The notes beneath the pieces were generated by a model. It saw only the letters and a list, made by a program, of their open reading frames with translations, had not been told where the DNA came from and did no database searches. DNA of 8,788 bases from Bordetella parapertussis (GTDB lineage Bacteria > Pseudomonadota > Gammaproteobacteria > Burkholderiales > SG8-41). The position numbers and the translations under genes were made by a program. Location of the stretch: contig CAMBSS010000172.1 of NCBI GenBank assembly GCA_945870465.1, positions 1 to 8,788 on the forward strand. The letters are read 5' to 3'. Of this stretch, positions 3,324 through 8,788 are shown piece after piece. Numbering within the stretch: the stretch's first letter is position 1; the number at the start of each line of letters is the position of its first letter.

Positions 3324-3557
3324 ATGCCCGCGATGAATCTGGCCGCCGCCAAAGCGAATTTGAGCGCCCTGGTAAGCAAAGCCGAGGGCGGCGAAGAAAC
3401 CATCATAATGCGCCGCGGTGAAGCGGTCGCCAAACTTGTGCCCATGACCGGGCGCAAGAAAGCTTTTCGTTCGCGCGCCCAGTTCCGCGCTACGTTGCTT
3501 AAATCGAGAAAATCGAGTGCCACCTTGATTCGTGCAATGCGAGACGAGGGATATTGA
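3324..3557 (+). CDS. Phd/YefM-family type II antitoxin
   Basis: A 77-residue protein. The ATG has GGAG (3314-3317) six bases upstream. Residues 4-40 follow the Phd/YefM pattern: NLAAAKANLSALVSKAEGGE, then a TIIMRRGEAVAKLVP strand-turn-strand that normally forms the dimer and DNA-binding part. The basic C-terminal stretch (44-77) would be the segment that covers the toxin. Its stop overlaps the toxin start (TGATG), the usual coupling in such operons. Known role: it neutralises the partner PIN nuclease and, with it, represses the operon. The promoter and a tandem repeat directly upstream fit autoregulation. Family assignment is firm by pattern and by context. Confidence 0.9.
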   Translation: MPAMNLAAAKANLSALVSKAEGGEETIIMRRGEAVAKLVPMTGRKKAFRSRAQFRATLLKSRKSSATLIRAMRDEGY

Positions 3558-3985
3558 TGGTCTATCTGGATACCAGCTTTATCGCCCCGTTGGTCATCTC
3601 CGAGAACAGCAGCGCAGCGGTAGAAGCTTTGGTCATGAAAGTAAAGTCCGGCGATCTGGTCACGGGGATGTGGACGCAAGTTGAACTCGCAAGCCTGGTG
3701 GCGCGCAAACTGCGCATGGGCGAAATAACCGCCGCTGACGCTGATGCTGTACGGCGCGAGTGCCGTCACATTCTGGAGGAATCATTTAATATTCTAGCTC
3801 CGGCGGCGGCAGACTTTGCGACGGCTACAAAGTATCTCGAAATGCCCAAGACTGGCCTGCGGGCGGGCGACGCATTGCACCTCGCGATTGCGGCGAACCA
3901 TGGCGCCAGGAAAATATGGTCACTTGACCGTGGATTCGTTCAAGCGGGCAAATATCTCAAGCTACCGGTGAGTGCCGGACTGTAG
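3557..3985 (+). CDS. vapC: PIN-domain toxin (VapC-like ribonuclease)
   Basis: A 142-residue protein starting at the ATG that shares one base with the antitoxin stop; GAGGG (3546-3550) lies six bases upstream. The four acidic residues expected of a PIN nuclease metal site are visible: Asp5 in YLDTS, Glu43 in QVELAS, Asp105 in AGDALHLA, and Asp124 in SLDRGF. Length and motif order match VapC toxins, which are Mg-dependent RNases that cleave tRNA or rRNA when not held by the antitoxin. All catalytic residues are kept, so the toxin is probably active. The last ten bases of the gene, including the TAG stop, are repeated immediately downstream (3986-3995). This PIN protein is of a different subgroup from the one at 7246-7641. 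Confidence 0.92.
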   Translation: MVYLDTSFIAPLVISENSSAAVEALVMKVKSGDLVTGMWTQVELASLVARKLRMGEITAADADAVRRECRHILEESFNILAPAAADFATATKYLEMPKTGLRAGDALHLAIAANHGARKIWSLDRGFVQAGKYLKLPVSAGL

Positions 3986-4338: not shown

Positions 4339-6171
4339 CTATTTTTCCAGCCCGGCAAGCTTCCTGAAATTCGGCTCGGCATGCGGGAACGGCGGCAGTT
4401 GCCACGTGCCAGTGCCGACCGGACGGATGTCGCGATCGACGGGCACCTCAACCAGGTAAGGCCGGTTAGACTTGATCGCGGTTTCGAGCACACCTTCAAG
4501 ATCGCTCGCGCGTTCGACTTTCGCGCCATCTACGCCCATGGAACGTGCCAGCATCACAAAATCCGCGCTGAAAAGCTTCTTGGTCTTGTCGATCTGGAAG
4601 CTGGTCGCCAGTTCCTGTCCGAACATGCCGAGCTGCATGTCGCGGATCGAGCAGTAGCCGTAGTTGTTCCACACCACCCACACGGCGGGAATGTCGTATT
4701 CCACCGCGGTAGCCAGGATGTGCGGCGTCATCATGAAAGATCCGTCGCCGACCACCGCAATCGCCGGGCTTTCCGGCTGCGCGAGTTTCGCGCCGAGGAT
4801 GCCGCAGGTAGCAAAACCCATGGACGCAAAACCCCATGACTGCAGCAGGTGGCGCGCGCGCCGCGCTTTCCATAATTGCACGACCCAGTTGTGGTGCACG
4901 CCAACGTCGGTCGCGAATATCGCGTTTTCCGGAATGACGTTCGACAGCCCCTTGAGCAGGCGCTCGGGACGCATCGGCATCTGGTCGGACTCCATGAACG
5001 GCTTCTGGTAGTCATCCCAGATTTTTTTGCAGTCCTTGAGCTTCGCCATCCAGTCGTCGTAAGTCTTCGGCTTGGACTTGGTTTTTTCCTGCGCGCGGCG
5101 CACCAGCACTTCAAGGCTCGCGCGGATGTCGCCGAGTATGCCGAGATGCGCCGGATAGTTGCGCCCGATCTCGGAAGGGTCGTTGTCGATCTGGATCAAT
5201 TTGGTCGGCGGCACAGTCAGCGTATAGCCGCTGATCCACGCGCTGGTGGCGCGGTCATCGAAGCTGCAGCCGAGCCCGAGTATTACGTCGGCATTGCGCG
5301 TTGCTTCGTTCGCTGCGTATGGGCCGTTTCTGCCCATAGGGCCGAAACTCAATTCATGCGTTTCGTCTATGGTGCCTTTACCGTTCGGACTGGTGACCAC
5401 CGGAATGCGCAGCAGCTTGATGAAGTCGAGCAGCACTTCAGTCGCTTCACCGATAAGACCGCCCTGCCCGACCAGAATCACCGGACGTTTTGCCGCAAGC
5501 AGCAAGTCCAGCGCCTGATCCAGCGCACCGAGATCACCCGGCGCGCGTTGCATGACCAGCGGATCGGGATCCGGCACCTCACATTCCGCGGATTCCTGGA
5601 ATACATTGAGCGGCACGTCGATGTTCACCGGGCCCGGGCGGCCTGTGCGCAGCAGTCCGAACGCCTGCTTCATCGCCAGCGGCAGCATTTCAACGCGCGA
5701 GGGCTGGAAGCTTTTCTTGACCAGCGGCCGGATCACCGACGGGAAGTCGCCCTGAAAGTAGCGGCCGGTTTCCTGGAACGGCATGCGGTTGAATTGAGTC
5801 GTCGGCACATTGCCGGTGATGGCAAGAAACGCTGACGAATCCATCATCGCGCCGGCAAGCGCGACCGGCATATTGCACGAACCCGGACCGCACGAAGTGT
5901 AAGTCGCGACCGGTTGATGCTTCACTTTGTAATACGCATCGGCCATGTAACCCGCGGCCTGCTCGTGGTGCACCGAGATAGTCCGGATGCGATCGGCCGC
6001 GCTGCATGCAGCATCAAGAAAACCGATATTGCCGTGGCCGCACACGCCGAACAGATACGGCACCTTCTCTTTGATCAGGTACTCGACCATGATCTCGGCG
6101 CCTTTATAGGTCGTGCGCTTGGGTGCGTTGCTCGTGGTTTTGGTCGGTGCGGCGGGGGTCGGCGTGTCCAT
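4339..6171 (-). CDS. ThDP-dependent acetolactate-synthase-like enzyme (IlvB superfamily), substrate unassigned
   Basis: A 610-residue protein. The ATG at 6171 has GGAG (6179-6182) at a seven-base spacing. After a Thr/Pro/Lys-rich leader (1-20) come the three domains of the family. The N-terminal pyrimidine-binding domain has the catalytic Glu70 in HHEQAAGYMADAY. The central Rossmann-like domain spans roughly 220-370. The C-terminal diphosphate-binding domain has GDGS at 475-478 and NN at 502-503, the metal/ThDP motif at normal spacing. Enzymes of this family make or break C-C bonds next to a carbonyl (2-oxoacid decarboxylases, acetolactate synthase, sulfoacetaldehyde acetyltransferase, oxalyl-CoA decarboxylase). 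The motif after NN (YGYCSIRDMQ) is not that of housekeeping IlvB and no IlvN subunit is near, so a catabolic role is likelier. It lies 76 bases after the binding-protein gene and ends the minus-strand gene train. Confidence 0.88.
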   Translation of the reverse strand: MDTPTPAAPTKTTSNAPKRTTYKGAEIMVEYLIKEKVPYLFGVCGHGNIGFLDAACSAADRIRTISVHHEQAAGYMADAYYKVKHQPVATYTSCGPGSCNMPVALAGAMMDSSAFLAITGNVPTTQFNRMPFQETGRYFQGDFPSVIRPLVKKSFQPSRVEMLPLAMKQAFGLLRTGRPGPVNIDVPLNVFQESAECEVPDPDPLVMQRAPGDLGALDQALDLLLAAKRPVILVGQGGLIGEATEVLLDFIKLLRIPVVTSPNGKGTIDETHELSFGPMGRNGPYAANEATRNADVILGLGCSFDDRATSAWISGYTLTVPPTKLIQIDNDPSEIGRNYPAHLGILGDIRASLEVLVRRAQEKTKSKPKTYDDWMAKLKDCKKIWDDYQKPFMESDQMPMRPERLLKGLSNVIPENAIFATDVGVHHNWVVQLWKARRARHLLQSWGFASMGFATCGILGAKLAQPESPAIAVVGDGSFMMTPHILATAVEYDIPAVWVVWNNYGYCSIRDMQLGMFGQELATSFQIDKTKKLFSADFVMLARSMGVDGAKVERASDLEGVLETAIKSNRPYLVEVPVDRDIRPVGTGTWQLPPFPHAEPNFRKLAGLEK

Positions 6172-6247: not shown

Positions 6248-7147
6248 CTATCTGACCACATCTTCCCACCGCGGACACGCGCGTTCCTCGAAAGGCTTGT
6301 CCCACTGCGCGCAATTGGCGCGGTCGACGACTTGCACCGGCAATATGATCTGCGGTGGCACGCTCTCGCCGCGCAAATGGCGAATCGCTGCTTCAGTGGC
6401 GAGGCAGCCCATTTTCATGGCGTCGAAATCGACCGTCGCGAGCAACTTGCCGCTTTTGATCGCGGCAATCGCTTCCGGTACCGCGTTGATGCCGGTCACC
6501 ACACTCGTGCGTCCCGCCGCATCGAGCACTTCCAGCATGGCCAGCGCCATCACATCGTTGGCTGCAAGTATCGCGTCGAACCGCACGCCGGACTTCAGAA
6601 AAACCGCGCCGACATGCAAAGTGTCATCGCGCTGATATTCGCCGCTGATCGTCGCCACGATGCGCATGTCCGGAGATTTTTTCAGCGCGTCGCAGAATCC
6701 GCGTACCCGTTCCACGCTCGACACCGATTCGCGTGGCCCGGCGACGATGACGATATCACCGCGTCTTTTCAAATGGTCGCACAGGTACGTAGCGACCCTG
6801 ATCGCCAGCGGATAGTCTTCGGAGCCGACAAAGGTAACGATGTTCTGCTCGGTAAACGGGTTGACGAAACCTATGATGGGAATGCCGGCCGCGACAATCT
6901 TGCGAATCGCCGCATTGACCGCGGTCGGATGCGCCGGCACCAGCGCAAATGCGTCAGGACGCGTGGCCAGCGCCACGTCGATCAGCGCAATCTGCTCTTT
7001 CGCATCATCGGGTTTTTGCGGCACGTAGTGAACAGTGCGCGCCCCCATGCGCTGCGCCGTGCGATCAGCGCCCATCCGCGCTGCGGCATAGGCGGGGTTG
7101 GTGAGGTTCTTGGTGAAAACCGCTATAACGGGCTGTTTTTCATTCAT
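6248..7147 (-). CDS. RbsB-like (Peripla_BP_4) sugar-binding-fold protein without signal peptide
   Basis: A 299-residue type I periplasmic-binding-protein fold. Lobe one begins at once with VIAVFTKNLTNPAY (7-20). ERVRGF in the middle, AANDVMALAMLE near Asn197/Asp198 and TGINAVPEAIAAIKSGKL follow the RbsB/LacI-core pattern of sugar binders. There is no signal peptide and no helix-turn-helix. A TAA stop lies in frame two codons before the ATG, so the frame cannot be extended. The ribosome site is weak (GGTAAG). Codons 9-35 are duplicated at 7995-8075. It is followed after 76 bases by the ThDP enzyme, so the two probably share a transcript. No ABC ATPase or permease is in view. Possible roles are a cytoplasmic metabolite sensor or binding partner, or a translocated protein whose signal was lost. 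Confidence 0.85.
   Translation of the reverse strand: MNEKQPVIAVFTKNLTNPAYAAARMGADRTAQRMGARTVHYVPQKPDDAKEQIALIDVALATRPDAFALVPAHPTAVNAAIRKIVAAGIPIIGFVNPFTEQNIVTFVGSEDYPLAIRVATYLCDHLKRRGDIVIVAGPRESVSSVERVRGFCDALKKSPDMRIVATISGEYQRDDTLHVGAVFLKSGVRFDAILAANDVMALAMLEVLDAAGRTSVVTGINAVPEAIAAIKSGKLLATVDFDAMKMGCLATEAAIRHLRGESVPPQIILPVQVVDRANCAQWDKPFEERACPRWEDVVR
7043..7123 (-). repeat. 81-bp direct repeat, copy 1 (inside intact binding-protein gene)
   Basis: Identical to 7995-8075 at 80 of 81 positions, same orientation, offset 952 bp. The only difference is G at 7097 against A at 8049, a synonymous third-position change (AAC/AAT, Asn17). It covers codons 9-35 of the binding-protein gene. Similarity stops abruptly at both ends. 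Confidence 0.95.
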
Positions 7148-7245
7148 GGCTTACCGGTATGCATTAACTCTACAAACTGGCGCGAGCCAAAAACTGGAAA
7201 AAACGCAGCGCACGCAGCCAGTCGGAGCCAATCAATTGGGAACGG

Positions 7246-7641
7246 TTACTTCAGCAATGTCATTCCGGCCTTCGACGCTCGCTTATCGAAAGTCACCACG
7301 CTCTTGCAACCTGCTGAGACAGCGGAATGAGCAACCAGACAATCCGCGAAATCCGCCTTGCTTGATTCGAAAAGACGCAGGGCTTTCCAGGCCGTCTCTG
7401 CGTCCTGCACCACTAATTGTTTGATGCTCAGGATTCTGCGCACGATTTCTGCGACTTCTTCCCTGGTCGCTCCGTAACTGCTCTCGCTCACCCAAACGAC
7501 TTCCACGAGCACGACCAGTCCGACGAAACCCGGCGCGGCCTCATTGCATATTTTCTCAATGAAAGACGTCGCAAGGCGGGACTGGATCGCATCGTCTTGC
7601 GCGATATAGCGCACCAGAACATTTGTATCGATGCCGATCAC
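7246..7641 (-). CDS. vapC: PIN-domain toxin (VapC-like ribonuclease) paired with AbrB antitoxin
   Basis: A 131-residue protein starting at GTG; the start overlaps the antitoxin stop by four bases (GTGA), the usual translational coupling. The PIN metal-site residues are Asp5 in GIDTNVLVRY, Glu47 in VLVEVVWV, Asp97 and Asp100 in ADFADCLVA, and Asp119 in TFDKRA. The motif set is that of VapC toxins that pair with AbrB/MazE-type antitoxins. All acidic residues are kept and the length is normal, so it is probably functional as an RNase when released. The gene ends 98 bases before the binding-protein start, and the whole module lies between the two copies of an 81-bp repeat, which suggests it arrived as a unit. 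Confidence 0.92.
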   Translation of the reverse strand: MIGIDTNVLVRYIAQDDAIQSRLATSFIEKICNEAAPGFVGLVVLVEVVWVSESSYGATREEVAEIVRRILSIKQLVVQDAETAWKALRLFESSKADFADCLVAHSAVSAGCKSVVTFDKRASKAGMTLLK

Positions 7642-7877
7642 CGACCGGCGCCCCGCGCCCGAATTGCCGCATTCATGTCGGCCACGCCTACAGGTTTGGA
7701 CGGCTTGCGCAGCAAGCCCTTCAGCGAGCGCACGTCATCGATTGCGGGCTTGATTGCAAACATGCCGCTCTCAATCTCGACGAATTCAATTCGATCGCCC
7801 GCGTCCAATCCGAGCCTCTGCCTCACGCCCAGCGGGATAGTCACCTGCCCTTTGGTGGTCATGATGGATGTGGCCAT
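7638..7877 (-). CDS. vapB: AbrB/MazE (SpoVT-AbrB) family antitoxin
   Basis: A 79-residue protein; the ATG at 7877 has AGGAG (7883-7887) five bases upstream, which favours it over Met6. Residues 5-37 are the swapped-hairpin AbrB DNA-binding domain: TTKGQVTIP, then VRQRLGLDAGDRIEF. The C-terminal part (45-79) would bind and block the PIN toxin that follows with a four-base overlap. Antitoxins of this type repress their own operon through a palindrome, and one is present just upstream at 7904-7919. Family firm from motif and partner. Confidence 0.93.
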   Translation of the reverse strand: MATSIMTTKGQVTIPLGVRQRLGLDAGDRIEFVEIESGMFAIKPAIDDVRSLKGLLRKPSKPVGVADMNAAIRARGAGR

Positions 7878-7903
7878 TCCGACTCCTACTTTTTATAGAT
7901 TTC

Positions 7904-7919
7904 CTTACTATATGGTAAG
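7904..7919 (-). promoter_or_regulatory. Near-perfect palindrome upstream of the AbrB antitoxin, putative operator
   Basis: CTTACTATATGGTAAG is a 16-bp inverted repeat with one mismatched pair, 26 bases before the antitoxin ATG. On the minus strand it is followed toward the gene by TATAAA (7892-7897), a possible -10 box. No convincing -35 at normal spacing is seen (CTGACT at 7918-7923 would leave 20 bp). The position fits an autorepression site for the AbrB-type antitoxin; this is inference. Confidence 0.45.
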
Positions 7920-7953
7920 TCAGTAATCAGCGCAAGGCCGAATGCCATCAATG

Positions 7954-7970
7954 CAGCTCGCGGCGAGCTG
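7954..7970. repeat. Perfect 17-nt palindrome (CAGCTCGC-G-GCGAGCTG)
   Basis: The 8-bp arms at 7954-7961 and 7963-7970 mirror each other around one base, giving a 7-bp stem with a 3-nt loop. It lies in the novel tail of the relic gene, between the AbrB operator and the 81-bp repeat. No T-run follows on either strand, so it is not a typical terminator. It may mark the junction of the inserted segment. Confidence 0.5.
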
Positions 7971-7994
7971 TCCATTTACTCTCAGTAACATGCG

Positions 7995-8075
7995 CCCCAT
8001 GCGCTGCGCCGTGCGATCAGCGCCCATCCGCGCTGCGGCATAGGCGGGATTGGTGAGGTTCTTGGTGAAAACCGC
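7995..8075 (-). repeat. 81-bp direct repeat, copy 2 (inside relic gene)
   Basis: Direct copy of 7043-7123 with one synonymous difference at 8049. Together the two copies bracket 871 bp containing the AbrB/PIN module. Recombination between them would delete that segment and restore one intact binding-protein gene next to mmgE/prpD. Confidence 0.95.
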
Positions 8076-8098
8076 GATCGTGGACAGAGCCATTGCGC

Positions 8099-8788
8099 TC
8101 AAGCCGTAGCCATGTGACTTAACAAATCCCCAATATCAGTACAATTCTCGAACTGTGCAACCCCGTCGATTACCTGTTGCACCTGCTTGTTTTTCAGCAC
8201 GCCGTCCGCCAGTTCGAAAAACTTGCGCTCGATATCGGTGTCGCCCAACGGGTTGTTCGGATGGCCGGGCGGATATTTGTGCACGCGCGTAAATTCGCGG
8301 CCGTCGCGCAGCCTGACCACGACACCGCCGCCCGACGAGCGCGGCCATAACGCAGTGAGTTCGTCGTCGGCTTCCAGTCGCGTCTTTGCGATCAACTCTT
8401 TGATGTCCGCCGACGCAATGCGTTGGTCCGTAAACTGCGCAGGCCCAAATTCGCCGTCGAGTAAAGCCGCAACTACGCAATAGTGATAACTGTGGTCTGC
8501 CGTTTCCTTGTCGCGCGGATAGTTCTTCTGCGGATCCGATGCTTTCTTGACGGCGTTCGCGTGCAGCTTGATGACGACACTATCGATGTCCGTGGGCGGT
8601 ATTCTTTCCCGCGTCACCAGGTCGAGCGCAGCGCGTATAGGCGCCATCGCTCCTGCTACCGCCGCATACGGCTTCAAGCATGTATCGAGTATGCGGTAGC
8701 GCTCGCCGACCGGCGCCACCAGCGCTTCGAAGTCCATCGTCCCCGCCACCGTCTTGCCCCAGCCCGCAACACCTTCGAAGATTTCTTC
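8099..8788 (-). CDS. MmgE/PrpD family protein, C-terminal half (5' part beyond window)
   Basis: The frame is open to the right edge and gives 229 residues before the TGA at 8099; an internal GTG at 8749 is not the start because similarity continues upstream (EEIFEGVAGW). Family signatures of the C-terminal domain are visible: KPYAAVAGAMAPIRAAL, a VVIKLHANAV strand, an HSYHYCVVAALLDG segment near visible residue 100, a regulatory-looking EADDEL stretch, and HPNNPLGDTDIERKF near 175-190. MmgE/PrpD proteins are about 450-480 residues and include 2-methylcitrate dehydratase, cis-aconitate decarboxylase and many uncharacterised catabolic members. This one stands at the head of a minus-strand train with a binding protein and a ThDP enzyme, not with prpB/prpC, so methylcitrate dehydratase activity should not be assumed. 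Confidence 0.9.
   Translation of the reverse strand, partial: EEIFEGVAGWGKTVAGTMDFEALVAPVGERYRILDTCLKPYAAVAGAMAPIRAALDLVTRERIPPTDIDSVVIKLHANAVKKASDPQKNYPRDKETADHSYHYCVVAALLDGEFGPAQFTDQRIASADIKELIAKTRLEADDELTALWPRSSGGGVVVRLRDGREFTRVHKYPPGHPNNPLGDTDIERKFFELADGVLKNKQVQQVIDGVAQFENCTDIGDLLSHMATA

Follow-up and report, generated by a model that had tools for sequence, protein, structure and literature searches.

Passages of PMC3874152 describe target duplications of long and variable size, "in the order of 100 bp", at the insertion of some restriction-modification systems, and the work of Nobusato et al. 2000 (Gene 259:99) is cited for this type of insertion in passages of the same paper and of PMC3031569 and PMC1643837. 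The locus described here is similar in that a small addiction-type gene set lies between direct repeats of about 100 bp. It differs in that insertion with long target duplication is known for restriction-modification genes, while here the flank outside the left copy is not clearly the native 5' end of the gene, and none of 35 binding-protein places and 12 mmgE loci showed an empty site. Homology-facilitated illegitimate recombination has been proposed, in passages of PMC5361080, for displaced effector-immunity modules with gene remnants beside the new modules. An added module, a cut-off gene piece at one edge and replaced neighbouring DNA are likenesses to this locus, whereas the piece in the window (the whole stretch of 8,788 nucleotides that was analysed) is a patch with two unrelated edges. 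As for toxin-antitoxin pairs with long target duplications, no title or abstract beginning among the papers listed by literature searches for them describes one, which is not meant as a claim that such a pair is unpublished. With VapBC-type pairs the locus shares an AbrB/MazE and a PIN gene, the antitoxin gene lying directly ahead with an overlap of 4 nt, and nothing unusual was seen in its pair, which scores below the cut-off of the one matching NCBIfam VapC model. It is ordinary for chromosomes to gain toxin-antitoxin pairs and for rearrangement joints to carry partial copies of genes. In the best reading of the sequence, the repeat would be an ordinary rearrangement scar beside a VapBC-like pair and not the footprint of a self-inserting toxin module.

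Read on the minus strand, the window carries in this order the C-terminal part of an MmgE/PrpD gene, a truncated frame, an AbrB/MazE-type gene, a PIN gene, a gene for a Peripla_BP_4 binding protein and a gene for a ThDP enzyme (Table 1). The ATG of the truncated frame is located 5 bp behind the stop codon of mmgE/prpD (8101-8099), and a TTG at 8102, in the same reading frame as this ATG, overlaps that stop. The inverted repeat ahead of the AbrB gene is possibly an operator. Between copy B and the AbrB gene an RNA element was looked for; the idea was rejected, as the window gave no Rfam match at the gathering threshold and the folding was unremarkable (z score -0.27). No transposase was recognised among the ten window proteins scanned, in agreement with the initial annotation of this DNA.

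Table 1. Features of the locus and their positions in the window
Feature	Positions	Strand	Remarks
mmgE/prpD gene, C-terminal part, runs off the window	8099..8788	-	PF19305, 132.2 bits
Truncated frame, 57 codons and stop	7920..8093	-	ATG at 8093
Leader of copy B including its start codon (MALSTI together with the following bases)	8079..8093	-	Unrelated to the leader of copy A
Copy B	7995..8078	-	Part of the truncated frame that follows mmgE; P0121 and P0122 contain the product of this frame
CTTAC-6-GTAAG inverted repeat, upstream of the AbrB gene	7904..7919	.	Read from the sequence; also in G019
AbrB/MazE-type antitoxin gene	7638..7877	-	PF04014, 28.7 bits (cut-off 24.7)
PIN-domain toxin-like gene; its GTG start and the stop of the antitoxin gene overlap by 4 nt	7246..7641	-	PF01850, 54.1 bits (cut-off 23.6)
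Spacer, PIN gene to start codon of copy A	7148..7245	-	Last bases resemble G055 at the same place
Leader of copy A including its start codon (MNEKQPVI together with the following bases)	7127..7147	-	Family-like
Copy A	7043..7126	-	Codons 9-35 of the intact binding-protein gene and one further, partly matching codon before
Intact binding-protein gene (Peripla_BP_4), 299 aa	6248..7147	-	PF13407, 148.5 bits
ThDP enzyme gene, next downstream of the binding protein	4339..6171	-	93% identical in G055 and G058

A repeat search of the window gave a single strong direct repeat of 84 nt (copies A and B), with 82/84 identical positions (98%) and a spacing of 952. In its 81-bp core (7043-7123 and 7995-8075) 80 of 81 positions are identical, and the sole mismatch, a C/T difference within an Asn codon, is synonymous. 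The repeat corresponds to codons 9-35 of the intact binding-protein gene and codons 7-33 of the truncated frame. The direct repeat with the AbrB/MazE and PIN pair between its copies is real; repeat search and domain matches reproduce what had been annotated on each of these points. Homologous 81-bp stretches of relatives (26 distinct ones, drawn only from fetched loci matching a short search pattern, with loci lacking the pattern uncounted) agree with copy A at no more than 66 of the 81 positions and with copy B at no more than 67, so that the likeness between the two copies is far beyond chance. Their 5' sequences are unrelated and they have separate start codons, a point that the initial annotation had left unweighed.

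The gene pair between the copies is VapBC-like and probably acts as an ordinary type II toxin-antitoxin pair. The PIN protein has the acidic residues D5, E47, D97/D100 and D119, which are taken here to be catalytic, and matches one NCBIfam VapC model with 19.6 bits, below the 73.6-bit cut-off of that model. Neither AbrB nor PIN gave a match beside the binding-protein gene in the corresponding regions of the relatives G055 and G058, and a DNA search of both genomes was likewise empty; therefore the pair looks added in this lineage, and the earlier proposal that the segment entered later is supported. A relative with 82% DNA identity was found in G019 (L092, 5420-5885), where the PIN gene is without its middle part and the CTTAC-6-GTAAG repeat is kept. 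This relative is also situated behind an MmgE-like gene, only 25% identical, to which little weight is given because MmgE-like genes are numerous, with 19-74 matches per genome in 12 genomes. Relatives of the PIN protein were present in 54 plasmid records, all under 60% identity, and in several of the records listed the relative is annotated as VapC and located next to AbrB/MazE. A viral or plasmid origin was considered and rejected: the binding-protein search of viral contigs was empty, the PIN search of these gave one locus at 51%, a degenerate 30-base pattern matched nothing, and the plasmid relatives stay below the identity given above. A piece of another mmgE gene had also been considered for the DNA from copy B to the AbrB gene, on account of a 33-nt match of 88% inside an MmgE-like gene of G060; this was rejected, as 179 of 500 shuffled sequences matched 43 MmgE-like proteins equally well.

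Downstream of copy A, the order binding protein, ThDP enzyme, TctC, TctC and dehydrogenase is common to the window and G055, and is found with one extra TctC gene in G058. These are the two most syntenic relatives, with binding proteins 75% (G055) and 71% (G058) identical to that of the window. Upstream of the binding-protein gene lies not mmgE but a TctC gene in G001 and G058, and a 3' TctC remnant in G055. In G055 (L048, about 17398-18113) two small minus-strand frames upstream of the binding protein resemble, by eye, an antitoxin-PIN pair. For the relatives as a whole, 40 entries representing 35 distinct places (L048-L052 repeat L021-L025) were counted, leaving out duplicates (L009-L014, L016), distant relatives (L017, L018), a different protein with 24% identity (L008) and the internally deleted copy of G017 (L019/L020). 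Within 1.5 kb upstream of the binding protein, MmgE was recognised in none of the 35 places; a TctC gene was found on the same strand in eight and on the opposite strand in one, a ThDP enzyme in four, and none of the tested proteins in 22. The reverse comparison covered 12 mmgE loci, 11 from a search of 74 genomes of the family (E ≤ 1e-40, 40-70% identical) and one, G141, from 399 genomes of the order; in large genomes these searches scored part of the candidates, up to 39 per genome in the former and up to seven in the latter. A binding protein was found behind mmgE in 0 of the 12 loci, four of which gave no more than weak hits (E of 0.04 or higher), and the gene behind mmgE was a same-strand TctC gene in four loci and an opposite-strand TctC gene in three. 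The closest mmgE relatives (L102-L107, L083, L084) often adjoin a TctC receptor gene. Both counts refer to places outside the closest strains P0001, P0002, P0121 and P0122. A search with the DNA of positions 7995-8788 against 369 genomes of the class gave no match at E ≤ 1e-25; it was run without a positive control and shows little. The ancestral operon of mmgE/prpD, binding protein and ThDP enzyme that had been suggested for this locus is thus not borne out by these counts, and the uninterrupted single-copy site proposed as a check was not found in any of the 35 binding-protein places or 12 mmgE loci.

The start of the binding protein was used to judge which copy is native. The 119 proteins of the family (P0002-P0120) supplied 96 leaders with a length of five residues or more and 77 distinct endings. 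These served as a profile over positions -2 to -5 ahead of the conserved AVF, and scores were compared with those of 50,000 random leaders; P0001, which is 98% identical to the intact protein, was excluded since it bears the leader of copy A. The score of the leader of A was equalled by 0.022% of the random leaders, and 72 of the 77 family leaders score no higher. For the leader of B, which has T, the commonest residue, at position -2, the values were 12.5% and 7 of 77. A first version of the test with 114 leaders gave 0.01% for A and 10.8% for B. When the bases before the start codons were aligned, the score of A against G055 was reached by 1.9% of shuffles, against G058 by 99% and against L001 by 39%, while that of B against G055 was reached by 9.2%. 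Judged by these scores, the family-like leader is that of copy A, on the side of the insert, which points to A as the native copy; the leader of B is weak, though some family leaders score no higher. A target duplication predicts that the native 5' end lies outside, at copy B, and that the start of A derives from the insert, so that the leader test points in the opposite way.

A junction of this kind could in principle be produced by assembly, two genomes or places being falsely joined through shared sequence. A protein search with the truncated product gave three proteins at E ≤ 1, one of them a 101-aa piece of an ordinary relative. The other two (P0121 and P0122) are 57 aa long and 98% identical; P0121 is from ENA (longest contig 3364 bp) and P0122 from Logan (longest contig 3563 bp), each with three member sequences. 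Both span the leader, the repeat and the unrelated tail, i.e. both junctions of copy B, which makes an accident of assembly unlikely, and the start of copy A recurs in P0001. An assembly error, which had been named earlier as the finding that would refute the repeat, is accordingly given hardly any probability. Each of the two proteins carries a single substitution, different from that of the other, so that the scar does not seem brand new but has persisted through some divergence of strains. Of the recent event read from the one synonymous difference between the copies, only a part can be retained.

The explanation preferred here, to which about an even chance is given, is that a deletion-insertion took place upstream of a native locus of binding protein and ThDP enzyme and that a copied patch of 84 bp stayed behind at one of the junctions. 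Copy A would then be in its native position, and its start and the genes downstream of it would be native as well, while the DNA just upstream would have been rearranged in this lineage, mmgE/prpD and the VapBC-like AbrB-PIN segment replacing the TctC gene or remnant of the closest syntenic relatives. Copy B would be a scrap where mmgE and the AbrB-PIN segment adjoin, a copy of some 84 bp from the 5' coding region of the binding-protein gene of this same lineage, joined illegitimately on either side, and it probably has no function of its own. With a deletion-insertion as the presumed cause, template switching or one-ended (homology-facilitated) illegitimate recombination may have produced the patch, this copying mechanism being a guess. 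The downstream order shared with G055 and G058, and the TctC gene or remnant upstream in G001, G058 and G055, speak for a scar. Against it stand the start of B so close behind the mmgE stop with the in-frame TTG over this stop, which resemble a coupled operon, as well as the modest upstream likeness of A, the 22 of 35 upstream places without a recognised tested protein, and the fact that seven of the 77 family leaders score no higher than the leader of B. The same in-frame start behind mmgE can be turned into the main rival, which is considered possible at rather less than even chances: mmgE may once have had its own binding-protein gene behind it, with MALSTI as its start (MSAMALSTI if read from the TTG). 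Entry of the AbrB-PIN pair would have truncated this gene at codon 33, and gene conversion with the intact gene would keep the shared part alike. The conversion tract would, equally tentatively, run up to the variable leader in one direction and to the cut in the other. Partial copies do exist in relatives, as a 3' piece of the binding-protein gene (residues 184-299) is located near a full copy and is 74% alike in DNA in G083 (L038, 148-498) and an internally deleted copy is present in G017 (L019), and G007 has two full copies. However, mmgE and the binding-protein gene were found adjacent in neither set of relatives, and the leader of B scores weakly. The two copies are identical at 80 of 81 positions yet have unrelated leaders, whereas a second gene of such likeness, inherited in the normal way, should have the same leader, as is the case for P0001. 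A short copy from the lineage's own gene is therefore favoured, and a remnant would need gene conversion as an extra step.

The initial annotation suggested that an operon of mmgE, binding protein and ThDP enzyme was opened when the AbrB-PIN segment entered and 81 bp of the target were duplicated. Insertion of this type is described for restriction-modification genes. Direct repeats of fitting size, near 100 bp at both edges of the insert, do bracket an addiction-type pair that was not found beside the gene in G055 and G058, and a computed deletion of the 952 bp between the copies leaves an open frame of 894 nt with no internal stop, which is in line with the excision by recombination that had been put forward. 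The outer flanks taken together should then give the original gene, but the outer flank, the leader of B, is not clearly native, whereas the flank on the insert side is native-like, and it would have to be by chance that the insert supplied a start codon in frame together with a family-like leader. With no uninterrupted site of mmgE and binding protein among the places surveyed, a target duplication is considered improbable. Still somewhat less probable is the wider claim that a VapBC-like pair moves by insertion with long target duplication and forms an addicted but RecA-reversible block. If this were true, the pair would be lost through the 952-bp deletion, after which an open binding-protein frame would follow mmgE directly, and if close strains showed an empty site between mmgE and the binding protein, long target duplication would be extended from restriction-modification genes to a toxin-antitoxin pair. 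The locus carries a caution, namely that a direct repeat around a module indicates a target duplication only if the outer flanks fit, and that the variable leader of a gene can reveal the native copy.

Two further elements were observed elsewhere in the window. A second toxin-antitoxin pair on the plus strand (3324-3985), consisting of a Phd/YefM antitoxin (PF02604) and a PIN protein (PF01850), is located between the ThDP and TctC genes; at the corresponding place in G055 and G058 no match to it was found. The intergenic region at about 2100-2235 contains the inverted arms gccgcagataaa and tttatctgcggc. Within it, positions 2105-2152 are 83-84% identical to two stretches of G019 close to its relative of the AbrB-PIN pair, and because of these two matches this segment may be a dispersed repeat.
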